Shown here piece by piece: positions 13,101 to 42,108 of a stretch of DNA of 64,000 bases. A model generated the notes under the pieces. It made no database searches. It was given only the letters and a program-made list of their open reading frames with translations, and had not been told where the DNA came from. The stretch is from Bacteroidia bacterium (GTDB lineage: Bacteria > Bacteroidota > Bacteroidia > B-17B0 > Aurantibacillaceae). Within the stretch, counting starts at the first letter, position 1; each line of letters opens with the position of its first letter. Both the position numbers and the translations under genes were made by a program. Location of the stretch: the NCBI GenBank assembly GCA_022841465.1, contig JALHRL010000008.1, positions 1 to 64,000 on the forward strand, in the 5' to 3' direction.

Positions 13101-13104
13101 TCCT

Positions 13105-13119
13105 CTACCGAGCGAATCC
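13105..13119. repeat. 15-base GC-rich junction motif, copy 1
   Basis: CTACCGAGCGAATCC occurs four bases after copy A of the duplicated gene end. The same string with one change (CTACCGCGCGAATCC) occurs at 42045-42059, at the equivalent position beside the second duplicated gene end. Confidence 0.65.
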
Positions 13120-13170
13120 ATAAATAAGTATGAAAAAGCACAAAAAAGTTTTGGATAATTAGACGAAGAA

Positions 13171-13506
13171 TTACCTTTCCAATAAACTTTCGATTTCAAC
13201 TTCAAGCTTAGGAAGGTCGCGAATAATTATTGCCCAAATAATATCGTCTGAAACGGAATCGTAACCATGCGAAATTCTGTTTCGGGTATCAACAATTTTT
13301 CGAGAGTTTGATATTTCAATATTGGGATTTTGACTTAAAATTCTATTGACAGCCTCTCCAATAATTTCGAGATTTCGTTCAATGGCTCTTTTTGTTTTAA
13401 GGTCTTTTTGAAATTCTTTAAATAATTTTTTGTCAGGGATAAATTGATTTATTTCAGAAATTGCTTGTTTAATATCTGAAAGCCAAACCTTAATTTCCTT
13501 TTCCAT
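13171..13506 (-). CDS. hepT: HepT-like toxin (HEPN domain, DUF86)
   Basis: A 111-residue all-alpha HEPN protein when started at the ATG at 13506; the longer frame from 13530 adds eight unconserved residues. RNRISHGY at residues 75-82 is the RX4HXY active-site motif of HepT (Arg75, His80, Tyr82). In characterised pairs, HepT is an RNase or its activity is controlled by AMPylation of this Tyr by MntA. It overlaps the end of the antitoxin gene by 17 bases, the standard arrangement of antitoxin first. The pair lies between two copies of a neighbouring gene's 3' end, which suggests that the module was inserted. Confidence 0.88.
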   Translation of the reverse strand: MEKEIKVWLSDIKQAISEINQFIPDKKLFKEFQKDLKTKRAIERNLEIIGEAVNRILSQNPNIEISNSRKIVDTRNRISHGYDSVSDDIIWAIIIRDLPKLEVEIESLLER

Positions 13507-13798
13507 AAACCAGTACTTTAGAATTTTCAATATTTTGAATTAAATATTGATTTTTAATGGCTCTTAGTTCAAGTAAGTCTACATTTCTTTTGAGCACTTT
13601 TTCCAAATTAAATTTAAGGCCAAAATAATTATCAGAATATGTAATGGGATCATTACTTTCAATGTCAACAATTAAATCTATATCACTTGTAGGTTTAAGT
13701 TCGTTTCTAGCCACTGAGCCAAATGCAAATAAAGACTTAACATGATATTTATCACAAAGAGCTTTGATTGATTCGATATTTAAAGAAATTAAATTCAT
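13490..13798 (-). CDS. mntA: MntA-like minimal nucleotidyltransferase antitoxin
   Basis: A 102-residue nucleotidyltransferase. The core motif is GS at 27-28, then Asp39 and Asp41 (GSVARNELKPTSDIDL), exactly the GSX10DXD pattern of MNT proteins. In the HepT/MntA family it neutralises HepT by transferring AMP to the toxin's active-site Tyr. It is transcribed first and overlaps hepT. The 158 bases upstream, between it and the beta-barrel gene, are AT-rich and should hold its promoter, but no clear box was recognised. Confidence 0.88.
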   Translation of the reverse strand: MNLISLNIESIKALCDKYHVKSLFAFGSVARNELKPTSDIDLIVDIESNDPITYSDNYFGLKFNLEKVLKRNVDLLELRAIKNQYLIQNIENSKVLVYGKGN

Positions 13799-13954
13799 TG
13801 CTATTTCAAAGATACTAAATTTTAAGAAATATTATCTCAATAGATAAAATCAATATTCTAGCGATTAAATTGCTTTAAAAAAAGGTTACGATTTTAAATT
13901 ATTTATGTTTTGAATCTCCTTCTACCTAAATTTTATAATAGTAATAAAGTACAG

Positions 13955-14014
13955 AATTACCTCCCAATTCTATACCCAATTCCAAAACAAAAACTAATAG
14001 TTGAAATACTTTGA
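13955..14014 (-). repeat. 3' end of the beta-barrel gene (copy B, in place)
   Basis: The resident copy of the 60-base direct repeat also present at 13041-13100. It covers the last codons (SISTISFCFGIGYRIGR) and the stop codon of the beta-barrel gene. The two differences from copy A are one synonymous Ile codon and Arg versus Lys. Confidence 0.9.
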
Positions 14015-14760
14015 GCAGTGTTTAAGTTATCAAAATAAGGCTTATTGATGTTGCGCCCGGTAGAAGAATAAAAGAAATCAGGATTTAATGAAAGTGTAAA
14101 CTTATCATTTAAATTTTTCTTTAATCCAAAGCCTAATTTAAATGCAAACCTGGTTTCAGAATTACTGGCAATGGTTTCGCTTACTGATGTTGCTTTTGCT
14201 GAACTGGGTTCAAAAACATACTCGGGAGTTTTGCTAACACATAAACCAACTAAAAAACGAGGAGTAAAATAATTATCTTCTCCTAACTTAAATTCATATG
14301 AACCACCAAGCAAAATAAAGTTATTACGCCAGTTTTCGTTCACCTTTAGCACATAATTATTTTTTTTCGCTAAGGCATTTTTAGAAAACTCTGCTTCTTT
14401 AAAATCGTTTGTTTGACGCGAGTAGGAAACTAAAAAATCAATATTCTCTTTTACTCTAATGGAAAAATTTAATCCAATAGAAAGGCCCTCACGCGCATAA
14501 CCTGCTAATGGATTTGCAAAATAATCGTTGTTATAATTTCCTATAGGTTTAGATAAACCAAAATGAAACTCAATTGAAATAAAATCTTTTTTAGTTACTT
14601 TTTTTGAGGTGTCAGCCGGTGCAATGCTATCTATAATTGCTGTATGAATTATTAAACTTGTATCCGGTCTTAACGTTGCTTTAACCGAAAGTGAATCTGT
14701 TTGAGCAAAGCATAAACTGCTAATTAAAATTAAATACGTTAATGCTATGCCTTGCTTCAT
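13957..14760 (-). CDS. Outer membrane beta-barrel protein
   Basis: A 267-residue protein. The signal peptide is residues 1-19 (ALTYLILISSLCFAQ). A Ser/Thr/Asp-rich linker precedes a barrel-like region from about residue 60, with alternating hydrophobic strands: FISIEFHFGLSKPIG, LSIGLNFSIRVKENIDFLVSYSRQ, FTLSLNPDFFYSSTG, and a final SFCFGIGYRI. It resembles the PorT/OmpW-like small barrels annotated as outer membrane beta-barrel proteins in Bacteroidota; no specific function can be given. The last strand is the part duplicated beyond the toxin-antitoxin pair. Confidence 0.75.
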   Translation of the reverse strand: MKQGIALTYLILISSLCFAQTDSLSVKATLRPDTSLIIHTAIIDSIAPADTSKKVTKKDFISIEFHFGLSKPIGNYNNDYFANPLAGYAREGLSIGLNFSIRVKENIDFLVSYSRQTNDFKEAEFSKNALAKKNNYVLKVNENWRNNFILLGGSYEFKLGEDNYFTPRFLVGLCVSKTPEYVFEPSSAKATSVSETIASNSETRFAFKLGFGLKKNLNDKFTLSLNPDFFYSSTGRNINKPYFDNLNTAQSISTISFCFGIGYRIGR

Positions 14761-14777
14761 AAGTTGAGTAAAGATAC

Positions 14778-16103
14778 TTAAATTTCCTTTTCTTCAAAAG
14801 TAATTCCCAATGAGTTAAGTTCTTGAAGCAAAGGAAGATATATTTCTTTACTTATAGGAATTTGAACTCCTGTTAAACTAAACTTTTTACTTAAGAAATT
14901 TTTTAAAGTAATAGCCAATGGTAAACCCACAGTTTTGGCCATTGCGGTATGTTCTTCATCATCACCCTTTACCATTAAAGATGAAGTAATTATTGACGCT
15001 TTCCCATTTAACTCAAACTCAAAAATGTGTTGCATAACAATCATATCCTTATCGCCAGGTGCCAACTTCCATTTTTCCTCTAGTAATGCTTGTAAAATTT
15101 GTGCAGGAGAAGCTTCTTTTAAATTTATTTTTTTGTTTCCAAACACTTCCAAATAATCTAGTTTTTCTTCGATGGAAGCATTGTAATTTACACCCATAAA
15201 ATCCTTCATTCTCGCTTTCAAATCTCCCGTTCCCTTTGGTAAAAACGAATCTAATAAATCTGCCCAGGTTAATTTATCGGCATTATTAATTTTATAAGTA
15301 TCATCGGTTAATCCCAGTTTCACAAATACATTCCAGGCTTCGCAATAACCCGGCATTCGTAAAGTTCCTCTTAATAATGTTTTTACCTGGTTCAACTTAT
15401 ATGGTTCTTTGTACGAAATACTATCACGGTTTGCGTATGCTTCAAACTTACCATGTTTACCCATATCAATTATTTCAGTTTGGGTAAACAACCTATTGTA
15501 TGGAATAAATTTTAATTTTCCGTTTTCTATATATTGAGCGGTACTTTGTCCTGCTAATACCACATTTCTGGGGTTCCAACTAAATTTGTATCCCCATGGA
15601 TTATTATTAAACTCAGGTGCTACAAGTCCGCCACAAAAAGACTTAAAAGAGGTAATGGTAGCGCCTTTCGCGTGCAATTCGTCAATTATTTTCATTGCAG
15701 AGGCATGGTCAATTCCCGGATCAAGACCAATTTCATTCATCAATAAAACTCCTTTGCTTTTTGCTTCCGCATCCAATTGTTTCATTTCATCACTCACATA
15801 ACTGGCGGTAAACAAATGCTTCCCAAACTTCACACAATCGCGGGCAACATCACCGTGCATAAACGCAGGTAACATAGAAACAACAACATCGTTTTTTTGA
15901 ATTAATCCGCTTCTTAAATTTTCATCTGTTACATTAAAAGATGTTGCTTCACAATTAGAAAAACCATTTGTTTTGGTTTTCGCCAAATTAACATCCATAT
16001 CGGCAACGGTAACAAACCAATTATTTGAAGCTGCATTGTTTAACAGATAAGAAATTAAACTAGAAGTAGAACGACCAGCACCTATAACTAAAATTTTTGT
16101 CAT
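14778..16103 (-). CDS. Saccharopine dehydrogenase family protein
   Basis: About 441 residues from the ATG at 16103; the TTG at 16112 would add three residues. It has an N-terminal Rossmann fold with ILVIGAGRSTSSLISYLL, then GLDPGIDHASAMKIID and the saccharopine dehydrogenase C-terminal domain with SFCGGLVAPEFNNNPWGYKFSW. This matches the reductase of the LYS9/AASS type, acting on saccharopine or a related lysine-pathway compound with NAD(P). Two substrates are possible and no lysine-degradation neighbour is present, so I do not assign a symbol. A TAAATTTG box at 16126-16133 on the minus strand, 22 bases before the ATG, is a likely -7 element. Confidence 0.85.
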   Translation of the reverse strand: MTKILVIGAGRSTSSLISYLLNNAASNNWFVTVADMDVNLAKTKTNGFSNCEATSFNVTDENLRSGLIQKNDVVVSMLPAFMHGDVARDCVKFGKHLFTASYVSDEMKQLDAEAKSKGVLLMNEIGLDPGIDHASAMKIIDELHAKGATITSFKSFCGGLVAPEFNNNPWGYKFSWNPRNVVLAGQSTAQYIENGKLKFIPYNRLFTQTEIIDMGKHGKFEAYANRDSISYKEPYKLNQVKTLLRGTLRMPGYCEAWNVFVKLGLTDDTYKINNADKLTWADLLDSFLPKGTGDLKARMKDFMGVNYNASIEEKLDYLEVFGNKKINLKEASPAQILQALLEEKWKLAPGDKDMIVMQHIFEFELNGKASIITSSLMVKGDDEEHTAMAKTVGLPLAITLKNFLSKKFSLTGVQIPISKEIYLPLLQELNSLGITFEEKEI

Positions 16104-16125
16104 ACAAATCAAAATTTAAAGATGC

Positions 16126-16133
16126 CAAATTTA
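16126..16133 (-). promoter_or_regulatory. Promoter -7 box (TAAATTTG) of the saccharopine dehydrogenase-like gene
   Basis: An exact TAnnTTTG match on the minus strand, 22 bases upstream of the chosen ATG. It lies in the 65-base divergent gap with the DUF4476 protein gene. No clear -33 TTG at normal spacing. Confidence 0.45.
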
Positions 16134-16168
16134 TTTCAATTGATAGATATTAATCTCTAACTTTAAGC

Positions 16169-17263
16169 ATGTTTTTTAGGTTATTGGTATTAATTTTATT
16201 CGGCACTTTTTTGCAGGCGCAAAATAACCTTATTATTTATAGCAGTAACGGCAAAGCTTTTCATTTATCTTCTAAAAATATAGCGGTTAATGAAACAACT
16301 GCCGCAGAATATAGCTTTCCTAATTTATTAATTGATACAATTGATCTTACCCTAATTTCAAAAAATAAAAAAATTAAATTAAACAGTACTGTATACTTAT
16401 TAAATAAAGGCGCAAAAACAACGAACAAAACTTTTATTTACGCTTTAGAAACAGATACAGTTAAATCTAAATTTAATTTGCGCTTTTTAGGCATTCAAGA
16501 TAGTCCTAAATTACCAAATCCATTAGTTCCGGATGTTCCTTACATTGATACTTCTTACAAAATGTTGAATAAATTATACGGTGATATTTTTGAATTAAAA
16601 GACGGAAAACCTCTTTTCTTTAATAATTTACCCAAAAGCAAAAAATGTTTAACACCAACATCCGACAAAAACGTATCACATGTACTAAACTTAAATAAAA
16701 AAACAAATGTAAAAACAGATCGGGTTAAATTTTCATTAGAAACAATAAACAATAACTGTGTTACCTGTGCGCAAGTAGCATTGCTTTGCCAAACCTTAGA
16801 TTTTGAATTAGATAGAATTAAAGTAATTAAAGAAGCTTTTAAAAACATTACCGATCCTGAAAACAAAAAATTATTAGAAGAAAGTGTAACCTTTGAATCA
16901 GGAAAAAAAGAAATTAGAGAATCTTTAGTTATTAAGTCTCAAAACCAACTAAAAAACACCAAAGTTTGTGCGGTAGCAGTACCGGATAGTGTTGTCAAAT
17001 TACTTTATGATAATTTAAAGTTGTATAATAACGATTTTGACAGGGTTATTTATTTAAAAAGCATTGATAAAAACAATTGTTATACAAGCATTCAATTAAA
17101 AAATTTACTGAATACTTTTTTGCACGACAGAGAAAAACTGGAAGTATGTAAACTTTATTATCACAATATTGTAGATAAAGAAAACCTAGAAAGTTATAAC
17201 GATGTATTTTCGTTTAACGAAACCTACAATAAATATTTAGATTTTTTAAAACAACCCGATTAA
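16169..17263 (+). CDS. Secreted protein with two DUF4476 domains
   Basis: A 364-residue exported protein with signal peptide 1-18 (LLVLILFGTFLQAQ). The N-terminal 120 residues form a beta-rich region. Two DUF4476-like helical repeats follow: the first at about 193-258 (CAQVALLCQTLDFELDRIKV and KEAFKNITDPENK), the second at about 270-357 (LYDNLKLYNNDFDRVIYLKS, LKNLLNTFLHDREKLEVC). DUF4476 occurs in Bacteroidota periplasmic or surface proteins of unknown function. The stop codon is four bases from the DUF423 gene, so the two may be co-transcribed. Confidence 0.75.
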   Translation: MFFRLLVLILFGTFLQAQNNLIIYSSNGKAFHLSSKNIAVNETTAAEYSFPNLLIDTIDLTLISKNKKIKLNSTVYLLNKGAKTTNKTFIYALETDTVKSKFNLRFLGIQDSPKLPNPLVPDVPYIDTSYKMLNKLYGDIFELKDGKPLFFNNLPKSKKCLTPTSDKNVSHVLNLNKKTNVKTDRVKFSLETINNNCVTCAQVALLCQTLDFELDRIKVIKEAFKNITDPENKKLLEESVTFESGKKEIRESLVIKSQNQLKNTKVCAVAVPDSVVKLLYDNLKLYNNDFDRVIYLKSIDKNNCYTSIQLKNLLNTFLHDREKLEVCKLYYHNIVDKENLESYNDVFSFNETYNKYLDFLKQPD

Positions 17264-17267
17264 CAAA

Positions 17268-17681
17268 ATGATTTCACGTAAATACGCAATTATTGGAATT
17301 TTAGGAGCTACCGCAGTAGCCATTGGAGCCTATGGCGCCCATGGATTAAAAAGCTATTTAGAAAGCGGATTAATGACTCCCGATTTATTAAATGGTTTTG
17401 ATACCGGTGTTAAATATCAAATGTATCATACACTGGCCATGTTTTTGGTTTTGCTTTTAAATAAAGACAATAACAACAAACTACTTCGTTTTTCATTTAA
17501 TCTGTTTTTAGGTGGAATCATTTTATTCTCGGGTTCATTGTACTTTTTAACTACCCGTTATGTTTTGGGTATGGAAGGTTTAAAATTTCTTGGCCCCATT
17601 ACCCCAATTGGCGGCTTATTGTTTATTGCCGCATGGTTGTTGTTGGTAATTGCAGCAGTTAAATCAAAATCAAATTCCTAA
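17268..17681 (+). CDS. DUF423 family inner membrane protein
   Basis: A 137-residue protein with four predicted membrane helices. The N-terminal signature AIGAYGAHGLKSYLE and YQMYHTLAMFLVLLL, then FSGSLYFL and GPITPIGGLLFIAAWLLL, are the conserved blocks of the YgdD/DUF423 family. The role of this family is not established. It lies four bases after the DUF4476 gene and nine bases before a small lipoprotein gene. Confidence 0.92.
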   Translation: MISRKYAIIGILGATAVAIGAYGAHGLKSYLESGLMTPDLLNGFDTGVKYQMYHTLAMFLVLLLNKDNNNKLLRFSFNLFLGGIILFSGSLYFLTTRYVLGMEGLKFLGPITPIGGLLFIAAWLLLVIAAVKSKSNS

Positions 17682-17690
17682 ATTCGTTTT

Positions 17691-18044
17691 ATGAAAAATT
17701 TAATTACAATAATTTGTCTGTTTTTATTAGGTGGTATTTTATTGCTTTCCTGTAAATCAAAAGCAAAGGCTGAAGTAACCGGTAATGTAAATACAAGTTC
17801 CTGCAAAGTGCAAATTAATTTTGGAAGCAGAGGTGATGGAATTAACGAAGCCAAATACAATGAGCTAATTGAACTTTTAAAAAAGGAAAAAATAAAATAC
17901 AGTGAAAAATCGGCAGGCCGCGAAGGAGAAAAAGAAATTTGCTTGCCTTTATCTGAATTAAAGGATAAGGAAAAGAACGACTTTATTGAGCGGTTGAAAA
18001 AATTTGAAGATAAGGAATCATTTATCTCATTATCAATTAATTAA
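17691..18044 (+). CDS. Small lipoprotein of unknown function
   Basis: A 117-residue protein with a type II signal peptide; the lipobox LLLSC places the lipidated Cys at residue 21, followed by Lys. The remaining 95 residues are highly charged (many Lys and Glu) with a second Cys in NTSSCKVQINFGSRGDG and EICLPLSELKDKEK. I do not recognise a family. It follows the DUF423 gene by nine bases, so it is probably co-transcribed with it. It does not appear broken. Confidence 0.7.
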   Translation: MKNLITIICLFLLGGILLLSCKSKAKAEVTGNVNTSSCKVQINFGSRGDGINEAKYNELIELLKKEKIKYSEKSAGREGEKEICLPLSELKDKEKNDFIERLKKFEDKESFISLSIN

Positions 18045-18105
18045 ACTTATTTAACCAACGGTTCTGAATGTGAAAAATATCACATTTTAGCTGCCTTATT
18101 TTTGC

Positions 18106-18113
18106 TAATTTTG
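18106..18113 (+). promoter_or_regulatory. Promoter -7 box (TAATTTTG) of pckA
   Basis: An exact TAnnTTTG match followed by CAGCACTAA, 26 bases before the pckA ATG. The upstream sequence TTTTAGCTGCC lies at the right distance for a -33 region but lacks a clean TTG. Confidence 0.6.
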
Positions 18114-18139
18114 CAGCACTAATCTTAAAAAAAATTGTA

Positions 18140-19753
18140 ATGAACGAATTGGGCTTAAAAGCAAGCAATGTTTCTATTGCCGACCTAGGTATAGGAAACG
18201 TTGAAATGGCTTACTGGAACATGCATCCAAGTGAACTTGTAGAAGAAACAATTATACGCGGAGAAGGCGTTTTAACCGATGTTGGAGCCTTAGCAATTGA
18301 TACCGGTGAATTTACAGGACGATCGCCAAAAGATAAATTTGTAGTTTACGATGAAAACACAAAAGATAGCGTTTGGTGGGGAGATGTAAACAACCGTTTT
18401 GAATCGGATAAATTTGATTTATTGCACAACCGAATGCTTGCCTACCTTGGCGGTAAAGAGGTTTGGGTGCGTGATGCTTATGCTTGCGCCGATCCTGCAC
18501 ACCGCATTAACATTCGTGTGGTAAACGAATTTCCTTGGAGTAATTTATTTTCTTATAATTTATTTTTACGTCCAACCAACGAGCAAATTAAAAACTTTAA
18601 ACACGATTGGTTAATTTTAAACGCACCGGGCTTTAAAGCCGACCCAAAAATTGACGGAACTCGTCAGCATAATTTTGCCATCATTAATTTTACCAAAAAA
18701 ATTATTTTAATTGGTGGCACCGGATATACCGGAGAAATTAAAAAATCTATTTTTGCTGTATTAAACTATATTTTACCACACGAGAAAAAAGTATTAAGTA
18801 TGCACTGCTCTGCCAATATTGGCAAAGCCGGCGATACTGCTATTTTCTTTGGGTTATCGGGTACAGGAAAAACAACGCTATCGGCCGACCCTAACCGTAA
18901 ATTAATTGGCGATGACGAGCACGGCTGGAGCGATACAGGTGTGTTTAACTTTGAAGGTGGATGTTACGCTAAATGTGTTGACTTAACCGCAGAAAAAGAA
19001 CCACAAATTTTTAGCGCCATTAAATTTGGTTCGTTGTTAGAGAACATTAATTTTCATGAAGGAAGCACAACTGTAGATTATGCGAATATTTCAAAAACAG
19101 AAAACACACGTGTAAGTTACCCTGCTAATTATATTGATAACGCAGTTACACCTGCAATTGGCGATATTCCAAAAAACATTTTCTTTTTAACCTGCGATGC
19201 ATTTGGCGTTTTACCTCCTATTAGTAAATTAACCAATGCACAAGCAATGTACCACTTTATTAGTGGTTATACTGCTAAGGTTGCAGGTACTGAAATGGGA
19301 ATTACAGAACCAACTACTACCTTCTCTGCTTGTTTTGGTAAAGCATTTTTACCATTGCATCCAACAAAATACGCTGAGTTATTAGGAGAAAAATTGAAGA
19401 AACACAAAGTAAACGTTTGGTTATTAAATACCGGATGGGTTGGCGGAAGCTATGGTGTTGGCAGTAGAATTAAATTAACATACACCCGTGCTTTAATTAC
19501 AGCTGCTTTAAATGGAGAACTGGATAATGTAGAATATGGTAAAACACCTTATTTTGGTTTGCATTTCCCAAAGGCTTGTCCAAATGTTCCAACAGAAATT
19601 TTAGAACCAATGAATGCTTGGAAAGATAAGGATTCGTTTAGAAATACGGCGCAAAACTTAGCCGGGCAATTCGTAAAAAACTTTGCTCAATATGCGTCTG
19701 CAGCGAATGATGAAATTTTATCTGCAGCACCTAAAGTAGAAGCTACCGTTTAA
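18140..19753 (+). CDS. pckA: Phosphoenolpyruvate carboxykinase (ATP)
   Basis: A 537-residue cytosolic enzyme, the usual size for the ATP-dependent form. It converts oxaloacetate and ATP to phosphoenolpyruvate and CO2, the first committed step of gluconeogenesis. It has TGRSPKDKF near residue 58 (substrate loop), the kinase P-loop GLSGTGKTTL at about 238-247, DDEHGW directly after, and the adenine-binding TGWVGGSYGVGSRI near residue 433. It is monocistronic, with its own -7 box upstream and a strong intrinsic terminator downstream. fbp, the other gluconeogenic key enzyme, is also in this window, at 54170. Confidence 0.98.
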   Translation: MNELGLKASNVSIADLGIGNVEMAYWNMHPSELVEETIIRGEGVLTDVGALAIDTGEFTGRSPKDKFVVYDENTKDSVWWGDVNNRFESDKFDLLHNRMLAYLGGKEVWVRDAYACADPAHRINIRVVNEFPWSNLFSYNLFLRPTNEQIKNFKHDWLILNAPGFKADPKIDGTRQHNFAIINFTKKIILIGGTGYTGEIKKSIFAVLNYILPHEKKVLSMHCSANIGKAGDTAIFFGLSGTGKTTLSADPNRKLIGDDEHGWSDTGVFNFEGGCYAKCVDLTAEKEPQIFSAIKFGSLLENINFHEGSTTVDYANISKTENTRVSYPANYIDNAVTPAIGDIPKNIFFLTCDAFGVLPPISKLTNAQAMYHFISGYTAKVAGTEMGITEPTTTFSACFGKAFLPLHPTKYAELLGEKLKKHKVNVWLLNTGWVGGSYGVGSRIKLTYTRALITAALNGELDNVEYGKTPYFGLHFPKACPNVPTEILEPMNAWKDKDSFRNTAQNLAGQFVKNFAQYASAANDEILSAAPKVEATV

Positions 19754-19772
19754 AAAAATAATTTATAAAATC

Positions 19773-19806
19773 AAAAGCCCCAACAATACTTGCTGGGGCT
19801 TTTTTA
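19773..19806. terminator. Bidirectional intrinsic terminator of pckA and the TonB receptor gene
   Basis: A 10-bp perfect stem, AAAAGCCCCA (19773-19782) and TGGGGCTTTT (19794-19803), with an 11-base loop and flanking T/A runs. It sits between the convergent pckA and TonB receptor genes and can serve both. Confidence 0.93.
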
Positions 19807-19810
19807 TTTA

Positions 19811-22243: not shown

Positions 22244-22319
22244 AATTACATGAATTAAAAACTTCAATATTGCAATACAATATTGTTTAAAAATTACTTA
22301 ATTAAAATCAGGGAGGAAA

Positions 22320-22883: not shown

Positions 22884-22940
22884 TTAAAATGCTTCTACCA
22901 AATATAGCGATTTTATTTCTGTAAGAAAAGAAGCTAATTT

Positions 22941-24017: not shown

Positions 24018-24018
24018 A

Positions 24019-26536: not shown

Positions 26537-26658
26537 ATACAATTAGGCTAAATTAGTTAATTTTTTGCGACTAAAAGGCATTTTATAGACTAAAATTTGA
26601 ATGATTTTGTTGTTTTTATCCGTTAAAAAAAGGTAACAATTCCTATTTAATTAAAGCC

Positions 26659-26687: not shown

Positions 26688-26706
26688 ATTACTAATTAAA
26701 ATTAAA

Positions 26707-32343: not shown

Positions 32344-32436
32344 ATTTTGAATTCGTTGATTTTTGTTCTACATTAACATGACAGAAATCAATTTTATAAT
32401 AAAAGAATAGTTATAGATTTAAGAAATAATATAAAC

Positions 32437-33273: not shown

Positions 33274-33292
33274 TAATTTAAAATAAAACACC

Positions 33293-33715: not shown

Positions 33716-34087
33716 TTAGTGCTTCTCAGTAACCGGTAAATCGGCTACTACTTTCTCGTTTGTTCTTACTTTAACTGGAACACCACCTGCTACTTCATAG
33801 GGTGAGGGTATTGCAAAATCATATCCAAAACCATAGATGTAGTAATTTCCTTTATACACTTCAAACTTATAATAACCTAAAGAATCAGGGCGTACTTTTG
33901 CATCATAAATAGTGGTATCGCTTCCCGGAAATTCCTTAGCATTAAATTTAATAAAAACAGAACCCCTTGAAATAGCTTTGCTATGATGTTTCATGTTCCC
34001 TTCAATAACTGCATCACCTCCAAGTTTGTTTTTCTTGCAACTAAAAAATAAAACCAAAACAATAATAAAACTCAATAATTTCTTCAT
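33716..34087 (-). CDS. Small lipoprotein of the MbnP/MbnH-like operon
   Basis: A 123-residue lipoprotein; lipobox LFFSC with Cys17, then KKNK. The mature part is one small beta-sandwich of the carboxypeptidase-regulatory type: DAVIEGNMKHHSKAISRGSV, then SLGYYKFEVYKGNYYIYGFG and VPVKVRTNEKVVADL. Three His residues (HH in the first strand, one at the very C-terminus) could bind metal, which is my inference. It is the third gene of the operon, four bases after the di-haem peroxidase gene. The family is not known to me. Confidence 0.65.
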   Translation of the reverse strand: MKKLLSFIIVLVLFFSCKKNKLGGDAVIEGNMKHHSKAISRGSVFIKFNAKEFPGSDTTIYDAKVRPDSLGYYKFEVYKGNYYIYGFGYDFAIPSPYEVAGGVPVKVRTNEKVVADLPVTEKH

Positions 34088-34091
34088 ACAA

Positions 34092-35147: not shown

Positions 35148-35149
35148 TT

Positions 35150-35929
35150 TTACTGCACTATTTCTTTAAAGCTTGTCATGTCTTGGTAATTATTTGCAAA
35201 GGTATTTGCTCTTAATCCTTCCGACATTATAAAATAATCTTGTGTAAAATCATAAACATTTGGATTCTTAAAAAGTTCATTTACATTAGTAGAAAGTTTC
35301 AATTCCGGATTTTTTGTTGCAGAAATCGTAAGATTTGTAGGGAAATTAATACTCACCCATCTTAAAACATTATTTGCGCCTTTAAAGCCCCCAGTGTGAA
35401 ATTGAATAGATTTATCTACTGTTCCTGATACCGGCGAATAACCCTCCAACTTTAACATAATATACCCAGTATTCCAATCCCAAAACATATTTTTTTCAGG
35501 CGCCAAATCTCCATCTTGCACTCCCGAAACATTTCGTGCGCTATCTACACCAATTAAATAAGTGATTTTTTTGTATGTTCCTTCCGGAATTCCTGAAAGG
35601 TTTACAATATGATTAGCTAAGTCATTACCCCTATTAATTAAATGGTAACTATTAGGCACTTTATAAACACTTTCATCTGTTTTTGTAAGTGTAATATTAC
35701 TAACATAATACATAAATTTATTTACGTTAAATGTATCTCCATTGGCATTTTTATAAAATGTGCCGTAAACCAAGGGAAGCGAATCTACCATATTGGCAAA
35801 ACTTATTTTTAAGGTTCCACCAGTGGCTGCAGGCGTGTTGTTAACGGGCGGAGTTGGCTCAGTAACAGTATCTTTTTTGCACGCCACAAAAATTAACATG
35901 GATACAATAATAAAGACAATATTTTTCAT
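35150..35929 (-). CDS. MbnP-like (copper-binding) periplasmic lipoprotein
   Basis: A 259-residue lipoprotein (lipobox IFVAC, Cys17). The mature domain matches the MbnP family: LKISFANMVDSLPLV, FNVNKFMYYVSNITL, GIPEGTYKKITYLIGVDSA, then NMFWDWNTGYIMLKLEGYS and IQFHTGG. MbnP proteins bind copper after an MbnH partner oxidises a conserved Trp; candidates here are Trp150, Trp152 and Trp191. It is first in a three-gene operon with the di-haem enzyme and a small lipoprotein. There is no methanobactin gene nearby. Whether it binds copper here is inferred from family membership only. Confidence 0.82.
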   Translation of the reverse strand: MKNIVFIIVSMLIFVACKKDTVTEPTPPVNNTPAATGGTLKISFANMVDSLPLVYGTFYKNANGDTFNVNKFMYYVSNITLTKTDESVYKVPNSYHLINRGNDLANHIVNLSGIPEGTYKKITYLIGVDSARNVSGVQDGDLAPEKNMFWDWNTGYIMLKLEGYSPVSGTVDKSIQFHTGGFKGANNVLRWVSINFPTNLTISATKNPELKLSTNVNELFKNPNVYDFTQDYFIMSEGLRANTFANNYQDMTSFKEIVQ

Positions 35930-36063
35930 AGCAATTTTCTTTAAACCTTAAAGTTACAAAAAAACAAGGCTAAATGCAATTTATTAGAGATAAGAATAAT
36001 CATCTTGTTTGTAAAAATTTGAATAAATAAAGGTTTAAATGTAACAAGCATATAATCCTTCTT

Positions 36064-36071
36064 TATATTTG
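36064..36071 (+). promoter_or_regulatory. Promoter -7 box (TATATTTG) of the glmM-like gene
   Basis: Exact TAnnTTTG match 19 bases before the GTG at 36091. Its position rules out the in-frame TTG at 36073, which would lie at or before the transcription start. Confidence 0.6.
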
Positions 36072-36090
36072 TTTGTTAAAAAAAAATAAA

Positions 36091-37488
36091 GTGACTCTTA
36101 TAAAAAGTATTTCAGGAATTAGAGGAACCATTGGCGGTAAACCCGGTGATGGATTAAGCCCTTTAGATATTGTTAAATTTAGTTCTGCTTATGCAATCTG
36201 GTTAATTAAAAAAAATCCTAAAGCAAAAAAAATTAAAGTAATCATTGGAAGAGATGCACGCATAAGCGGGGAAATGGTAAACCAATTAGTGGGCGGAACT
36301 TTAATTGGCATGGGTATTGATGTAATTGATGTAGGATTAAGCACCACCCCTACAGTGGAAGTGGGCGTTACAGAATTAAATGCAAACGGCGGAATTATTC
36401 TTACAGCCAGCCATAATCCTAAACAATGGAACGCTCTTAAACTTTTAAATGAAAAAGGTGAGTTTATTAGTGATGAAGATGGAAAATTAATTTTGAAACT
36501 AGCAGAAACCGAAGATTTTAATTATGCCGAAGTGGATACACTAGGTACGTATTCTTTAAATACCGATTTACTAGATATTCACATTCAAAAAATTTTAAAA
36601 TTACCTTATGTGGATGTAAAAGCCATTCAAGCTAAAAATTTCTCCATTGTTGTTGATCCTGTAAATTCTACGGGCGCTTTTGCTGTTCCGGAGTTACTAA
36701 AAGCATTGGGTGTTACAAATATTACGGTAATAAACGAACAAGTAAACGGACATTTTGCGCATAACCCCGAGCCTTTACCCGAACACTTAACTGAATTAAG
36801 CAGTGTAATTGTTAAGAAAAATGCAAATTTGGGAATAAGTGTTGACCCCGATGTTGACCGCCTGGCCTTGGTTTGCGAAGACGGTGAAATGTTTGGCGAA
36901 GAATATACCTTAGTTGCCGTTGCCGATTACGTATTACAACATCACAAAAATGGTAATACTGTAAGCAATTTATCAAGCACACGAGCTTTAAGAGATATCA
37001 CTGAAAAAAACGGAGGAAAATATGCTGCCAGTGCCGTTGGTGAAGTTAATGTGGTAAACATGATGAAAGAAACCCAAGCCGTAATTGGAGGCGAAGGTAA
37101 TGGCGGTGTAATTTTACCTGAGCTGCATTACGGAAGAGATGCTTTAGTTGGAATCGCCATTTTTCTAACGCATTTAGCAAAGTTTGGTAAACCCGTTTCT
37201 GTCTTAAGAAGAAGCTATCCTAATTACCATATTAGTAAAAATAAAATTGAACTAACACCTCAAATTAATGTAGATAAAGTACTGGAAAGCATTAAATTAA
37301 AGTATAGTAAAAACCCGGTGAATGATGTAGATGGTGTTAAAATTGAATTTGATAAAGAATGGGTTCACCTACGAAAAAGCAACACAGAGCCCATCATTCG
37401 AATTTATAGCGAAAGCGAAAGCCAATCAACCGCCGATAGTTTAGCTAAGAAAATTATAGCCGATATTAAAGAAATCATCAAAAATTAA
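36091..37488 (+). CDS. glmM: Phosphoglucosamine mutase
   Basis: About 465 residues from the GTG at 36091, so the protein begins MTLIKSISGIRGTIGG as in Bacteroidota relatives; the TTG at 36073 is too close to the promoter. It is an alpha-D-phosphohexomutase with active-site serine loop TASHNP (Ser107), metal-binding loop DPDVDR, sugar-specificity loop GEGNGGV and C-terminal phosphate loop RKSNTEPIIRI. It converts glucosamine-6-phosphate to glucosamine-1-phosphate for peptidoglycan and lipopolysaccharide. Phosphomannomutase activity cannot be excluded by sequence alone. It is followed by the cysteine desulfurase gene 41 bases on. Confidence 0.85.
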   Translation: MTLIKSISGIRGTIGGKPGDGLSPLDIVKFSSAYAIWLIKKNPKAKKIKVIIGRDARISGEMVNQLVGGTLIGMGIDVIDVGLSTTPTVEVGVTELNANGGIILTASHNPKQWNALKLLNEKGEFISDEDGKLILKLAETEDFNYAEVDTLGTYSLNTDLLDIHIQKILKLPYVDVKAIQAKNFSIVVDPVNSTGAFAVPELLKALGVTNITVINEQVNGHFAHNPEPLPEHLTELSSVIVKKNANLGISVDPDVDRLALVCEDGEMFGEEYTLVAVADYVLQHHKNGNTVSNLSSTRALRDITEKNGGKYAASAVGEVNVVNMMKETQAVIGGEGNGGVILPELHYGRDALVGIAIFLTHLAKFGKPVSVLRRSYPNYHISKNKIELTPQINVDKVLESIKLKYSKNPVNDVDGVKIEFDKEWVHLRKSNTEPIIRIYSESESQSTADSLAKKIIADIKEIIKN

Positions 37489-37529
37489 AGCTTAAATTTG
37501 TTGCTCCTTGCAATAACAAAGCATAACAC

Positions 37530-38672
37530 ATGAAAGTATATTTTGATAATGCTGCCACAACTCCGTTAGACGAAAAGGTTTTAGAAGCCATGATTCCGAT
37601 AATGCGTGATGAGTTTGGCAACCCTTCTTCTATTCATGCAACCGGCAGAAAAGTAAGAAGCTTAATAGAGAACGCACGAAAAACAGTGGCAAAGCTAATG
37701 AACGTTACTCCTGCAGAAATTTTCTTTACTTCAGGCGGTACAGAAGCTGATAATATGGCTATATGTCAAACAATTGAAAGTCATAATATTACACACGTTA
37801 TCTCAAGTAAAATTGAGCATCATGCGGTAGAACACACCATTTGTAATTTAGAGAAATTAGGAAAAATAAAGGCATCGTGGGTAAAGTTAGATAGCAAGGG
37901 TAATGTAGATTTAAATCACTTAGAAGAATTACTTAAAAACAATCCGCGCAGCTTAGTTTCATTAATGCACGCCAATAACGAAATAGGAACCTTATTGCCA
38001 ATAAAAGAAGTGGGCGAATTGTGCGAAAAATACAATGCCATTTTCCATAGCGACACCGTTCAAACAGTAGGCCACTACCCCATTAATTTAAAAGAAATTA
38101 AAGTTCATTTTATTACCTGCGCAGCCCATAAGTTTCATGGCCCTAAGGGTGTAGGGTTTTTGTATATAAACCATGCATTAAAAATTACGCCCTTTATTAA
38201 TGGTGGCTCGCAAGAAAGAAACATGCGTGGCGGAACCGAAAACGTATACGGAATTGTAGGCTTGGCAAAAGCGCTAGAAATTGCTTACGCTGAAATGGAT
38301 GAACATATTAAACATGTAAGCGGCCTTAAACAATACATGATGGAGAAGTTAAAAACTACCATTCCGGGAATTGAATTTAATGGCGAAACCGCTCCCGATA
38401 AGGCTTTATACACGGTTTTAAATTGCTGTTTTCCCCAACATCCAAATGCCGAAATGTTATTATTTAATTTAGATATTGCCGGTATTTCAGCTAGTGGCGG
38501 AAGTGCCTGTACCAGCGGAAGCAATCAAGGAAGTCACGTTTTGCGAGGTATTGGCGCTAATATGGATAGAGCTTCTGTTCGTTTCAGCTTTAGCAAATAC
38601 AATAAAAAAGAAGAAATAGACTTTGTGGTAGATAAGCTTAAAGAGCTATTTGCCGTTAAAGAAACTGCTTAA
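37530..38672 (+). CDS. Cysteine desulfurase (NifS/IscS family)
   Basis: A 380-residue PLP enzyme that takes sulfur from cysteine for Fe-S clusters and tRNA thiolation. It starts VYFDNAATTPLDEKVL; TSGGTEADN is the cofactor pocket; the PLP lysine is Lys201 in HKFHGPKG; the catalytic cysteine is Cys327 in SACTSGSNQGSH. The length and the short active-site loop place it in the NifS/IscS group rather than SufS. No scaffold gene (iscU, nifU) is adjacent. It lies between the glmM-like gene and rpsU, each on the same strand but with separate spacing. Confidence 0.93.
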   Translation: MKVYFDNAATTPLDEKVLEAMIPIMRDEFGNPSSIHATGRKVRSLIENARKTVAKLMNVTPAEIFFTSGGTEADNMAICQTIESHNITHVISSKIEHHAVEHTICNLEKLGKIKASWVKLDSKGNVDLNHLEELLKNNPRSLVSLMHANNEIGTLLPIKEVGELCEKYNAIFHSDTVQTVGHYPINLKEIKVHFITCAAHKFHGPKGVGFLYINHALKITPFINGGSQERNMRGGTENVYGIVGLAKALEIAYAEMDEHIKHVSGLKQYMMEKLKTTIPGIEFNGETAPDKALYTVLNCCFPQHPNAEMLLFNLDIAGISASGGSACTSGSNQGSHVLRGIGANMDRASVRFSFSKYNKKEEIDFVVDKLKELFAVKETA

Positions 38673-38685
38673 AAAAGAGATAAAA

Positions 38686-38718
38686 TTGTTTGCGAATTGT
38701 TTTTTTTCACTATATTTG
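38686..38718 (+). promoter_or_regulatory. Promoter of rpsU
   Basis: TTG at 38686-38688 and TATATTTG at 38711-38718 with a 22-base spacer; a second TTG at 38690-38692 gives 18 bases. This is the best match to the Bacteroidota consensus in the window and lies 32 bases before the rpsU ATG. Confidence 0.75.
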
Positions 38719-38738
38719 CAGCCTTAAATTACTAAAAC

Positions 38739-38744
38739 AGAGGA
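38739..38744 (+). promoter_or_regulatory. Shine-Dalgarno sequence of rpsU (AGAGGA)
   Basis: AGAGGA followed by AACAAA and the ATG. Most genes in this window have no such purine motif. In Flavobacterium, rpsU is known to keep a Shine-Dalgarno sequence although the ribosome's anti-SD is normally hidden by bS21. Confidence 0.7.
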
Positions 38745-38750
38745 AACAAA

Positions 38751-38948
38751 ATGTTAGTTGTACAAATAAAAGAAGGCGATACTATTGAGAAAGCCTTAAA
38801 AAAATACAAAAAGAAATTTGAAAAAACAGGCGTAGTTAAACAATTACGTGCTCGTCAAAAGTTTACTAAACCTTCTGTTCGTCGCAGAGAAGAAATAATT
38901 AAGGCGGTTTACAAGCAAAAGCTTCAAAACGGTCTTATCGAAAAATAA
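38751..38948 (+). CDS. rpsU: 30S ribosomal protein bS21
   Basis: A 65-residue basic protein: VVQIKEGDTIEKALKKYKKK at the N-terminus and KPSVRRREEIIKAVYK in the C-terminal half are the bS21 family blocks. It sits on the 30S platform next to the 3' end of 16S rRNA. In Bacteroidota studied so far, bS21 helps hide the anti-Shine-Dalgarno sequence and is autoregulated through its own SD. It has its own consensus promoter and is followed by an intrinsic terminator that runs into the xerC start codon. Confidence 0.97.
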   Translation: MLVVQIKEGDTIEKALKKYKKKFEKTGVVKQLRARQKFTKPSVRRREEIIKAVYKQKLQNGLIEK

Positions 38949-38968
38949 GATTTAACGTTATTTACTTG

Positions 38969-39011
38969 AAATCCTAAATTGAATTTGCTAAATTCGGTTT
39001 AGGATTTTTTT
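38969..39011 (+). terminator. Intrinsic terminator of rpsU, abutting the xerC start codon
   Basis: Stem AAATCCTAAA (38969-38978) with TTTAGGATTT (38998-39007), loop of 19 bases, T-run 39005-39011. The ATG of xerC is the next base. Termination here would leave no leader for xerC. Confidence 0.85.
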
Positions 39012-39905
39012 ATGGACGGAAGTTTGGTTGATATATATATTGAATATCTTAAAAAGATAAAAAAACTAAGTCCGCATACCCTTGTTTCCTATAAAAACGA
39101 CCTCCTCCAGTTTCAAGAATATCTTTTAAACGAAGTTGGCCGAAACACTATTAAAGATGTCAATCACCAAGATTTAAGAGGCTTTGTGGCTAAGTTAATG
39201 GATGAAGGTATACAAGCCAAATCGGTTAACAGAAAAATTTCAAGCGTTAAGTCTTATTTTAAATTCTTATTAAAAGAAGGTGAAATAAAACACAACACCA
39301 TTGCTAAGGTGCAAGGACCAAAAACACCAAAAAAACTTCCGGTTTTTGTTGAGGAAGAAAATATTAACACCCTTTTAGATAAGGTTGTTTTTGAAGATTC
39401 ATTTAATGGAATAAGAGATAAATTGGTTTTAAGTTTACTTTATTTAACCGGCATAAGACGCTCAGAATTAACAGGTTTAAACAACAATGACGTTGATTTG
39501 TTTAACAACGAAATTAAGGTTTTAGGAAAGCGAAATAAAGAAAGAATTATTCCAATAAGTTTAGAGCTTAAACGTAACCTTGAAACCTGGTTTAACGTAA
39601 AAAAAGAAAAGGATTTGAGCTGCGAATATATGTTTGTTTCTTCACAAAATAAGCCCTTAACTGCTAACCAAATTTACAACATTGTAAAGAAACACTTAAG
39701 CCTTGTTACATCACTTCATAAAAAAAGTCCGCACATTTTACGTCACACATTTGCCACCCATTTATTAAACAATGGTGCAGATATTAATGCGGTAAAAGAG
39801 TTGTTAGGTCACTCTAGCCTTGCAGCAACGCAAATTTACACACACAACAACATAGAGAAGTTGAAACAAACATATAAACAAGCGCATCCACGTTCAGGTA
39901 ACTAA
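39012..39905 (+). CDS. xerC: Tyrosine recombinase XerC/XerD
   Basis: A 297-residue site-specific recombinase that resolves chromosome dimers at dif with its partner. N-terminal SAM-like core-binding domain (about 3-90: [20 protein letters not shown]) and catalytic domain with Arg149 (TGIRRSEL), His241 and Arg244 ([10 protein letters not shown]), His267 (GHSS) and nucleophile Tyr276 (TQIYTH). All catalytic residues are present. Context next to rpsU and hpf is the usual one for the housekeeping Xer protein in Bacteroidota, which argues against a mobile-element integrase. XerC and XerD are hard to separate by sequence. Its start codon follows directly on the rpsU terminator. Confidence 0.92.
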
Positions 39906-39927
39906 AATTTAATAACTAACAATTAAA

Positions 39928-39933
39928 AGGAGG
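39928..39933 (+). promoter_or_regulatory. Strong Shine-Dalgarno sequence of hpf (AGGAGG)
   Basis: A full AGGAGG, nine bases before the hpf ATG. It is the strongest such motif I noticed in front of a gene in this window, in a phylum where these motifs are rare. Confidence 0.75.
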
Positions 39934-39942
39934 AAACACAAC

Positions 39943-40242
39943 ATGACAATCAACATTCAATCAGTGCATTTTAATGCCGATCAAAAATTAATTGGTTTTA
40001 TAAACGAAAAAGTTAGCAAATTAAAAACCTTTCATAGTGGTTTAATAAACAGTGAAGTTATTTTAAGATTAGATAAAAGCAGCAGTGCAGAAAATAAAAT
40101 TGCCGAAATAAAAATGCTTGGTAAAGGCCAAGAATTTTTTGCAAAAAAACAATGTGCAAGCTTTGAGGAAGCAACCGACCTAGCCTGCGAAGCACTAAAA
40201 ACACAAGTCAAAAAGCATAAAGAGAAATTAATTAACACTTAA
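39943..40242 (+). CDS. hpf: Ribosome hibernation promoting factor, short form (HPF/RaiA)
   Basis: A 99-residue protein with the beta-alpha-beta-beta-beta-alpha fold of HPF/YfiA: INIQSVHFNADQKLIGFINE, KLKTFHSGLINSEVILRLD, then FEEATDLACEALKTQVKKHK. It binds the decoding region of the 30S subunit and blocks mRNA and tRNA in stationary phase. The short length means no C-terminal dimerisation domain, so 100S formation would need another factor. It lies 37 bases after xerC and has an AGGAGG motif, and a strong terminator follows. Confidence 0.92.
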   Translation: MTINIQSVHFNADQKLIGFINEKVSKLKTFHSGLINSEVILRLDKSSSAENKIAEIKMLGKGQEFFAKKQCASFEEATDLACEALKTQVKKHKEKLINT

Positions 40243-40250
40243 TACTGGTA

Positions 40251-40278
40251 AAGTCCCGAATTTCTTCGGGACTTTTTT
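40251..40278 (+). terminator. Intrinsic terminator of hpf
   Basis: Perfect 10-bp stem AAGTCCCGAA (40251-40260) with TTCGGGACTT (40265-40274), a four-base loop and a T-run. It ends the rpsU-xerC-hpf cluster. Confidence 0.95.
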
Positions 40279-40320
40279 GTTTAGACATTTATCGATACCT
40301 TCGTACTATTACAAGGGTAA

Positions 40321-40710
40321 ATGAAAAAAATTTCAACCAAAGGAGCGCAAATACATTTCAGACCGGATGGAATAATTCATGTTCATTACGATGATGAATT
40401 ATTAGATTTGGAAACTGTAAAAAATGTTTTTTTCGTTACTCGAGAAAACTCTCCTTGGGATATTGCACCCATTTATATAACCGGAGGCACCTTTACCAAT
40501 CAAGAAAAAGAAGCTCGCAAATTTAGCGGTAGCGAAGATGTAATGAGGCATTGCAGTGCCATTGCCTTTTTATCTAAAGCTGCAGGAGAAAAATTATTGG
40601 CTAACTTTTTTATTAAATTTATGAAACCTTCAAAACCAACCAAATTTTTTAATACCGAAGAAGAAGCTATTAATTGGTTAAAAGGTTTTGTTGTTACTGA
40701 TAATAAATAA
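40321..40710 (+). CDS. Small STAS/SpoIIAA-like protein of unknown function
   Basis: A 129-residue soluble protein. The order of beta strands and helices (RPDGIIHVHYDDELLDLETV, then APIYITGG, CSAIAFLSKAAGEKLLANFF, FFNTEEEAINWLKGF) resembles the STAS-like DUF7793/SpoIIAA group found in Bacteroidota. No phosphorylatable Ser in a classic DSxG motif was found. The gene lies 26 bases before the cystathionine enzyme gene and could be co-transcribed with it. Function cannot be assigned. Confidence 0.6.
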   Translation: MKKISTKGAQIHFRPDGIIHVHYDDELLDLETVKNVFFVTRENSPWDIAPIYITGGTFTNQEKEARKFSGSEDVMRHCSAIAFLSKAAGEKLLANFFIKFMKPSKPTKFFNTEEEAINWLKGFVVTDNK

Positions 40711-40736
40711 TTTCATTTTAAACTTAAATAATTTAT

Positions 40737-41894
40737 ATGAGCGATTTTTCTAAACACAAATTTGGCACCAAGGCTATTCATGCCGGTGCTGATCCAGATC
40801 CATCAACCGGAGCAATTATGACTCCCATATTTCAAACATCAACCTACGTGCAACAATCGCCGGGTGTTAACAAAGGTTATGGTTATGCGCGCGGAAAAAA
40901 CCCTACACGCGAAGCATTACAAAAAAATATTGCAGCGCTTGAAAACGGTAAACATTGCGTATGCTTTAGTTCGGGTATGGGTGCCACAGATGCAGTAATG
41001 CGCATGTTACGCCCCGGTGATGAAGTAATTACAGGCGATGATTTATACGGAGGCTCTTACCGAATGTTTACCAAAATTTACGAAAACTACGGCATTAAAT
41101 TTCACTTCATTAATTTAACCGATGTCGAAAATATTAAAAAGTACATCAATAAAAACACTAAGCTAATTTGGGCAGAAACACCTACCAACCCAACGATGCA
41201 AATCATAGACATTGAAGCTTGTTCTAAAATTGCAAAAGCCAATAATTTAATTTTAGCGGTTGATAATACGTTTGCTTCCCCTTATTTACAAAACCCATTG
41301 GCCCTGGGGGCAGATATTGTAATGCATTCGGTAACTAAATACCTGGGCGGACATAGTGACGTAGTTATGGGAGCCTTGGTAATGAACGATGATAAATTGC
41401 ACGAGCAAATTTATTTTATTCTAAACAGCTGCGGCGCCAACCCGGGGCCTATGGATTGCTTTTTAGTAATGCGCGGTATTAAAACCTTGCATTTACGTAT
41501 GGAGCGCCATTGTTTTAACGGAAAAAAAATTGCCGAGTTTTTAAAAACACATCCGAAAATTGAAAAAATATACTGGCCTGGTTTTACCGACCATCCTAAC
41601 CACCAAATTGCCAAAAAACAAATGCGCGATTTTGGAGGAATGATTTCCATTGTATTAAAAGGTGCAAGTATTGAGGATACATTTAAAATTGCATCCTCAT
41701 TTAAAGTGTTTTCATTGGCAGAAAGTTTAGGTGGTGTTGAATCGTTAATTAACCATCCGGCAACTATGACGCATGCTTCTATTCCTAAAGCAGAGCGCGA
41801 AAAGGCAGGAGTGGTTGATAACCTGTTGCGTTTAAGTGTGGGCGTAGAAGATGTAGAAGATTTGATAGAAGATTTAAAACAAGCTTTAGCATAA
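40737..41894 (+). CDS. Cystathionine gamma-lyase / gamma-synthase family PLP enzyme
   Basis: A 385-residue Cys/Met-metabolism PLP enzyme. KFGTKAIHAGADPDPSTGAI and YGYARGKNPTREALQ are the N-terminal blocks; FSSGMGATDAV starts the cofactor site; the PLP lysine is Lys201 in SVTKYLGGHSD; SLGGVESLINHPATMTH is the substrate carboxylate-binding segment. Lyase and synthase cannot be told apart reliably by eye. A cystathionine beta-synthase gene is 2 kb away, so gamma-lyase in the reverse transsulfuration pathway is the better guess. Its last codons and the terminator behind it are duplicated at 42109-42160. Confidence 0.88.
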   Translation: MSDFSKHKFGTKAIHAGADPDPSTGAIMTPIFQTSTYVQQSPGVNKGYGYARGKNPTREALQKNIAALENGKHCVCFSSGMGATDAVMRMLRPGDEVITGDDLYGGSYRMFTKIYENYGIKFHFINLTDVENIKKYINKNTKLIWAETPTNPTMQIIDIEACSKIAKANNLILAVDNTFASPYLQNPLALGADIVMHSVTKYLGGHSDVVMGALVMNDDKLHEQIYFILNSCGANPGPMDCFLVMRGIKTLHLRMERHCFNGKKIAEFLKTHPKIEKIYWPGFTDHPNHQIAKKQMRDFGGMISIVLKGASIEDTFKIASSFKVFSLAESLGGVESLINHPATMTHASIPKAEREKAGVVDNLLRLSVGVEDVEDLIEDLKQALA

Positions 41895-41899
41895 ATAAA

Positions 41900-41930
41900 A
41901 AATCCCCGAAAATATTCGGGGATTTTTTAA
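41900..41930. terminator. Intrinsic terminator after the cystathionine enzyme gene
   Basis: Stem AAATCCCCGAA (41900-41910) with TTCGGGGATTT (41915-41925), four-base loop, then a T-run. It has a diverged counterpart at 42134-42160 in which both arms changed together. Confidence 0.93.
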
Positions 41931-41945
41931 ACCTTTATTTCTTTC

Positions 41946-42036
41946 TTAGCTTTTAAACTTATTCATTTTATCAGCCAATTTAATAGCCTCATACAAATTA
42001 ATTAAACCGGCGTTTTTACCTAATTCTTCAAACTTT
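41946..42036 (-). pseudogene. Detached C-terminal fragment of a subtilase gene
   Basis: On the minus strand this encodes KFEELGKNAGLINLYEAI and KLADKMNKFKS, then a stop. The first 23 residues equal the C-terminal region of the intact subtilase at 42183-43817, but the last seven (MNKFKS versus VYSIRVPF) differ. All three base differences within the homologous part are synonymous. An in-frame stop lies just upstream, so the fragment cannot be expressed as a protein. Confidence 0.85.
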
Positions 42037-42044
42037 ACCCTACG

Positions 42045-42059
42045 CTACCGCGCGAATCC
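42045..42059. repeat. 15-base GC-rich junction motif, copy 2
   Basis: CTACCGCGCGAATCC, eight bases after the detached subtilase end; one mismatch to the copy at 13105-13119. Confidence 0.65.
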
Positions 42060-42070: not shown

Positions 42071-42108
42071 GGCAATTATTTATTTTTTTCACAATCTAAT
42101 TCCAAAAA

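Follow-up and report, generated by a model that had tools for sequence, protein, structure and literature searches.

The closest described relatives of the element considered here are repetitive extragenic palindromic (REP) sequences and the REP-associated tyrosine transposases (RAYTs, also TnpA_REP). RAYTs of subclass 2.6 (Bertels group 5) occur in Bacteroidetes, carry the motifs NH[LIV]H, WQ and YIH[QN]NP, have a median length of 179 aa and are accompanied by atypical secondary structures with copies elsewhere in the genome (PMC6006769). Enzymes of this class cut single-stranded DNA beside a hairpin, keeping the 5' end on the tyrosine and freeing the 3' end (PMC8266576), and the mode in which RAYTs spread REPs has been left unresolved (PMC8266576, PMC3116915). 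Here we describe a REP hairpin found at two loci of a 64,000-nt stretch of DNA (the window; positions 1 to 64,000 of contig JALHRL010000008.1, assembly GCA_022841465.1, Bacteroidia bacterium, Aurantibacillaceae), where it stands at the junction of duplicated gene ends, in one case together with a toxin-antitoxin (TA) gene pair. Defined here by its sequence, the element belongs to a known kind; its new feature is the long, boundary-precise duplications, some of them with cargo, which are supported by statistics and by one uninterrupted site.

These duplications share one layout. The left copy of the repeated segment (X) ends at the C-rich outer edge of the hairpin, the right copy (X') lies 25 to ~1000 bp away, and ~20-165 bp are duplicated. 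The first-pass annotation had noticed both window examples through a 15-base string standing beside duplicated gene ends; the two copies of the string (CTACCGAGCGAATCC, 13105-13119, and CTACCGCGCGAATCC, 42045-42059) and the duplications themselves are confirmed (Table 1). They are the only exact matches to the pattern in the window, which contains four matches when up to 3 mismatches are allowed, a number reached by 2 of 100 shuffled sequences. The string makes up the left half of a dispersed hairpin of ~31 nt (consensus CCCCCGCTNCCGCGCGAATCCTTTCGCGTGGT). The copy at 42045 does form, as had been read from the sequence, the left half of a stable fold (-10.7 kcal/mol, z -3.96), and the copy at 13105 no longer folds (z -0.37), because its right arm is gone.

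The own genome of the window (3.77 Mb) holds 11 copies of CTACCGNGCGAATCC with at most one mismatch and 14 full hairpins with at most three, against none for the reversed-pattern controls in either search; the locus 1 copy is too decayed to be counted among the 14. Aligned copies define a constant unit, CCCCCGCTNC + CGCGCGAA-TCCT-TTCGCG + TGGT, and the logo of 247 sites is bounded at -10 and about +21. Conservation begins where the duplications end, and no bases are conserved beyond the outer edge. The stem is preserved through paired changes (GCGCG/CGCG versus GCACG/CGTG, plus CGAGTCCTCTCG variants). The constant GT[AG]G of canonical REPs is absent; on the reverse strand G[T/G/C]AG lies 3' of the stem, with a variable second base (forward position -2 of the logo: A 45, C 26, G 26 and T 3 percent). 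In public genomes the hairpin pattern was found in at least 114 stretches. Most of the stretches in which the CCGCTNC and TGG parts are complete are Bacteroidota contigs, a few lie in metagenome-assembled genomes labelled otherwise, and several Bacteroidota contigs carry a + and - hairpin pair ~640 bp apart. Many GC-rich matches outside Bacteroidota lack the CCGCTNC/TGG parts and are chance-like, as are all 18 records (E 0.7-9) of a plasmid search. A phage search with a query including CTACC gave no matches, and neither did Rfam at gathering scores on four of the stretches (L282, L040, L041 and L061). The fold of L040:1344-1376 (z -0.79) is uninformative, the chosen coordinates lacking the right arm.

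Among nine places in the own genome (RAYT locus excluded; mechanical open reading frames (ORFs) of at least 80 aa), the hairpin lies between convergent genes at six, between tandem genes at three and between divergent genes at none; on contig C27 it overlaps a mechanical ORF of ~100 aa. The earlier picture of a small element at convergent gene ends that can carry cargo stands as regards its dispersal, its prevailing context and the genes found between some copies.

A RAYT/IS200-like gene, whose presence elsewhere in the genome had been anticipated, was found by a Y1_Tnp search, which returned two genes. One is an intact RAYT gene encoding a protein of 186 aa (G000:C33:16356-16913), bracketed by inverted hairpins (16207+ and 16291+ on one side, 16934- on the other). 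Its product scores above the cut-offs of NCBIfam NF047646 (92.3 bits; cut-off 80) and Pfam PF01797 (34.1 bits; cut-off 23). A PDB sequence search gave four weak matches (best E 0.027; 4er8, TnpA_REP, E 0.17). The likeness to subclass 2.6 extends to the ~180-aa Y1 HUH gene with NHVH and Y[IV]HQNP (here YVHQNP), the same phylum, the inverted flanking hairpins without a constant GT[AG]G and the genome-wide copies; the W motif differs, being WR here and WQ in the published list (PMC6006769). On these sequence grounds the hairpin and the gene are of the REP/RAYT kind and putatively of Bacteroidetes subclass 2.6 (group 5), from which the W motif departs, and the RAYT of the own genome probably spreads the hairpin. 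The element had been taken for an undescribed one, a view that cannot be kept, as its class is already in print (PMC6006769). Neither a sequence consensus nor an insertion boundary, flank duplications or cargo is given in the parts of that account considered here.

The RAYT genes of two genus relatives, whose products are 79% and 77% identical to the present one, are flanked by inverted copies of CCGCACGAATCCTTTCGTGTG(G), in which the stem is altered by a paired change, and this change, plus another paired variant, recurs in 22 of 120 genomes around F. sasangense. Farther off in the genus, 16 RAYT loci were examined: four have a long inverted repeat (21-29 nt) with a different sequence around the gene, seven have a short one only (10-15 nt) and five have none. 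The four RAYTs with long repeats of their own are L295, L299, L303 and L307 (e.g. TCGCGCGGATTTGCAATCCGTGC and CCGCTCCGCAGGATTTGTAATCCTGCGG), which looks as if RAYT and REP co-evolved. The second Y1 transposase gene of the own genome (L039, G000:C5:24320-24664) scores 81 bits to PF01797.

The duplications were surveyed at 288 distinct hairpin-like sites, drawn from the own genome, the public stretches mentioned above, genus relatives and stretches chosen among the matches listed in 29 genomes. Local alignment of the upstream with the downstream flank gave a score of at least 20 at 51 of the 279 testable sites; mismatched flank pairs (n = 1656) score 17.5 at the 99th percentile and 23.5 at the 99.5th. 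The left copy stops 7-13 nt before the core, i.e. at the C-rich outer edge, in 18 of the 51. An alignment anchored at this edge scores at least 14 at 27 of 222 element-like sites, compared with 73 of 3330 anchors placed at random in the same sequences (Fisher P 2e-11; P values are indicative only, because the sites are not independent, many of them coming from the same genome or array), and generic hairpins show an outer-edge duplication in 1 of 30 cases. When only duplications without a hairpin just before X are considered (single-type cases), 6 of 19 reach the outer edge, X' starting 25, 41, 48, 95, 826 or 1009 bp past the hairpin; two of these six are the window loci. Uninterrupted sites for L274 and L113 were not found among relatives; L274 was not counted, and L113 was counted with a warning, because the DNA around both is locally repetitive. 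In a held-out set made up largely of variant hairpins (71 sites at 50 loci), the 70 sites tested gave 16 duplication rows, two of them precise, compared with 4 of 529 mismatched pairs reaching the same score. The two precise rows show the layout again: in L340 copies of 160 bp enclose three hairpins and an ORF of 139 aa that reads as hydrophobic, and in L339 copies of 103 bp enclose two inverted hairpins and a mechanical ORF of 110 aa.

Within the own genome we examined 13 sites (12 of the 14 full hairpins, two close neighbours being omitted, and locus 1). Flanks of 400 bp were compared, and locus 1, whose right copy lies farther off, was taken from the wider survey. Three sites have a clear flank duplication, the two in the window and one at C4:121871 (~40 bp), where a decayed hairpin stands before the left copy as well. 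The genome-wide inspection proposed in the first-pass annotation supports the association at these sites and shows no clear duplication at the other ten. This goes part of the way towards a condition that had been named as refuting the idea, the string being common at sites without duplication, yet duplications reach the hairpin edge above the rate of random anchors. The low count, together with a draft assembly of 125 contigs, might suggest a common hairpin lying by chance, or by faulty assembly, beside unrelated short repeats. We consider this very improbable, given the enrichment at the boundary and the cases in isolate genomes (L282 of Flavobacterium aciduliphilum and L167 of F. terrisoli). 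The copies in the window are not assembler duplicates, since they differ by substitutions.

At locus 1, X and X' differ at 2 of 58 bases. In the window one base separates the purK stop codon from the stop codon of the detached gene end, so that the join is seamless, and in a relative (G008, stretch L199) purK (88% identity) abuts the homologous membrane-protein gene (40%) with neither hairpin nor TA genes in between. The native state was therefore most likely a single X, judging from this comparison, and the present one is X, hairpin remnant, mntA-hepT and X'. The weak match to the right half of the hairpin reported at 13912 proved stronger than claimed, i.e. the hairpin core with one extra T, GAATC(T)CCTTC. 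In the window GAATCN{0,2}CCTTC occurs only here and in the core at 42054 (0.14 expected; two matches in 1 of 100 shuffles), in a test that was made post hoc. It is possible that the mntA-hepT genes sit inside a split hairpin. To the NCBIfam models the two products score below the cut-off of 60 (HepT-like, NF047751, 38.3 bits; MntA-like, NF047752, 50.1 bits).

At locus 2 both convergent gene ends are duplicated, that of the cystathionine gamma-synthase-like gene (+) and that of the S8 peptidase gene (-). The middle of X' has no match in X and the terminators of the two copies differ by paired changes; locus 2 is therefore not a simple recent duplication. In the peptidase part, the three internal differences between X and X' are synonymous (23 residues compared, one altered by border bases). 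In two relatives (G008 and G033) the DNA agrees with the detached peptidase end to its last codons, and with the resident copy only as far as TTATCAGCC; the C-terminus is ADKMNGFKG in G008 and ADKVYSIRVPF in the resident gene. The ancestral C-terminal residues, lost from the resident gene (42183-42215), are kept in the detached copy just before 41968, and by these alignments part of the resident copy was replaced. An uninterrupted junction was not found in either relative, G008 having an extra gene between the two and G033 a 2.6-kb gap. The synonymous differences and the paired terminator changes resemble those between copies taken from diverged strains, which would fit a Campbell-type event. 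Here homologous recombination would have brought a circle into the native junction, the circle bearing the hairpin, the cargo and some target DNA of a related strain, and the product would likewise be X-hairpin-cargo-X'. Such an origin is improbable, as it does not account for left copies stopping at the outer edge in several unrelated genomes. The two terminators (41896-41929 and 42133-42161) are of an A-run / CCCCGAAA..TTTCGGGG / T-run type that is also present elsewhere in several genus relatives.

Table 1. Coordinates of the features of the two window loci
Feature	Positions	Strand	Remarks
Locus 1 (mntA-hepT between duplicated gene ends)	13043-14014		
Detached copy X, 3' end of outer-membrane-protein gene	13043-13100	-	Native position against purK stop codon
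Decayed REP hairpin, left half (TCCT CTACCGAGCGAATCC)	13101-13119	+	Outer end abuts detached gene end
HepT-like HEPN RNase toxin gene, cargo	13171-13530	-	Pfam PF01934, 78.1 bits (cut-off 23.5)
MntA-like nucleotidyltransferase antitoxin gene, cargo	13490-13798	-	Scores above the Pfam cut-offs of PF01909 and PF18765
Possible second hairpin remnant (GAATC-T-CCTTC) before X'	13912-13922	+	Post hoc pattern match
Resident copy X' of outer-membrane-protein gene end	13957-14014	-	Duplicate of 13043-13100
Locus 2 (duplicated convergent junction)	41874-42280		
Left copy X: cystathionine gamma-synthase-like gene end, terminator, S8 peptidase gene end	41874-42037		Stops at C-rich edge of hairpin
Intact REP hairpin CCCTACGCTACCGCGCGAATCCCTTCGCGTGG	42038-42069	+	Hairpin pattern, fold
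AT-rich 39-bp filler of unknown origin, hairpin to X'	42070-42108		
Right copy X', continues into resident S8 peptidase gene	42109-42280		Middle ~45 bp unlike X

Since IS200/IS605 elements are described as free of target duplications in the part of the literature considered here (PMC7290912), we propose a one-ended RAYT insertion at the outer edge of the hairpin, the other end being finished by repair and leaving the X-hairpin-X' duplication; to our mind the balance tips slightly towards this origin. The RAYT, a single-tyrosine HUH nuclease, would cut single-stranded DNA at the outer edge, and the hairpin would keep a 5' phosphotyrosine. A free 3' end in the target X would then attack this phosphotyrosine end, which would give an exact X|CCCC join. 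Should the second strand transfer fail, repair or template switching might restart tens to hundreds of bases upstream and recopy X, which would result in a duplication of ~20-165 bp with a variable filler, and sometimes a captured gene such as mntA-hepT, between the hairpin and X'.

Several observations weigh against such an insertion. Besides the ten own-genome sites without a clear duplication and the structure of locus 2, duplications are anchored just as often at the inner (GTGG) edge (27 of 222), mainly owing to hairpin-X-hairpin-X arrays, and the one-ended asymmetry therefore rests on few single-type cases. The other 13 of the 19 single-type duplications do not end at the edge. Of the six that do, three call for caution, since L113 lies in the repetitive DNA noted above and in L282 and L234 another hairpin follows X'. 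Sites without the outer motif give 2 of 36 (17 of 540 at their random anchors). The held-out set gives weaker support (2 of 16, uniform P 0.015), its rows overlap and two of its genomes also belong to the first set, and no insertion polymorphic within a species was found. Moreover, tandem REPIN clusters that include flanking DNA have already been described in Pseudomonas (PMC3116915). As the main alternative, RAYT-spread REPs might insert cleanly, and a RAYT nick or a stalled fork at a resident hairpin might later trigger local re-replication or tandem duplication with its breakpoint at the hairpin. The arrays in L119, L144 and L348, in which the right copy begins 2-4 nt past the hairpin, speak for such a course, as do the inner edges anchored as frequently as the outer ones, the Pseudomonas clusters and the many own-genome copies without duplication. 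The single-type cases, which have no hairpin before X, and locus 1, where X is seamless against purK as in the uninterrupted relative, are better explained by insertion into X; we therefore regard a later duplication as possible rather than probable.

In the REPINs and REP arrays of P. fluorescens SBW25, which are likewise RAYT-linked dispersed palindromes, the replicative unit is a REP doublet (PMC3116915), whereas here a single hairpin can stand once at the duplication junction. With IS200/IS605 elements (e.g. IS608) the hairpins described here share Y1 HUH chemistry, a hairpin by the cut site and a 5' phosphotyrosine (PMC8266576). Those elements, in contrast, move as whole elements with two defined ends, and the present hairpins show duplications at part of the sites and no fixed target tetranucleotide. 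The layout also resembles the one-ended transposition of IS91, ISCR and Helitron elements, which have one precise and one imprecise end and capture neighbouring genes. These, however, use other HUH enzymes and rolling-circle transposition, and no long target duplication is expected of them. In the open-access literature we found no earlier report of boundary-precise REP duplications, which is a weak absence.

As fossil evidence, duplications that stop at one edge of the hairpin would record the RAYT reaction, marking the likely cut site and the end joined first, and would suggest that the host's repair deals with the other end. As a tentative generalization, Bacteroidota RAYTs might spread single hairpins by one-ended single-strand insertion, with long variable target duplications and the capture of host genes, and REPs might then serve as small carriers of gene cassettes (mntA-hepT; the ORFs of unknown function in L282 and L340). 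If true, this would make REP dissemination directly testable in Flavobacterium and would account for gene ends that are duplicated, and for stray accessory genes, where convergent genes meet.

As to the cargo, an element specific for TA genes was considered and rejected. Among eight genus relatives with long matches, seven loci with mntA-hepT homologues (~1.5 kb) have no clear hairpin, the one weak fuzzy match (L067) being at about the rate in shuffled sequence; the TA genes therefore look like cargo. In L062 (G036) and L063 (G024) imperfect inverted repeats (TTACC..TAATGGCGGGAC and GTCCGCCACAACTGGTAACAGC) stand on either side of the mntA-hepT pair, which is perhaps a cassette of another type. 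The region 1850-5400 of L282 (G074:C1) contains single-gene units preceded by the hairpin and/or by a second repeat resembling CCAGGAACNCCNANGCCTGAATCAAGTAGG, and looks like a cassette array, two of its ORFs being hydrophobic without a Pfam match and one encoding an HSDR_N-type nuclease.

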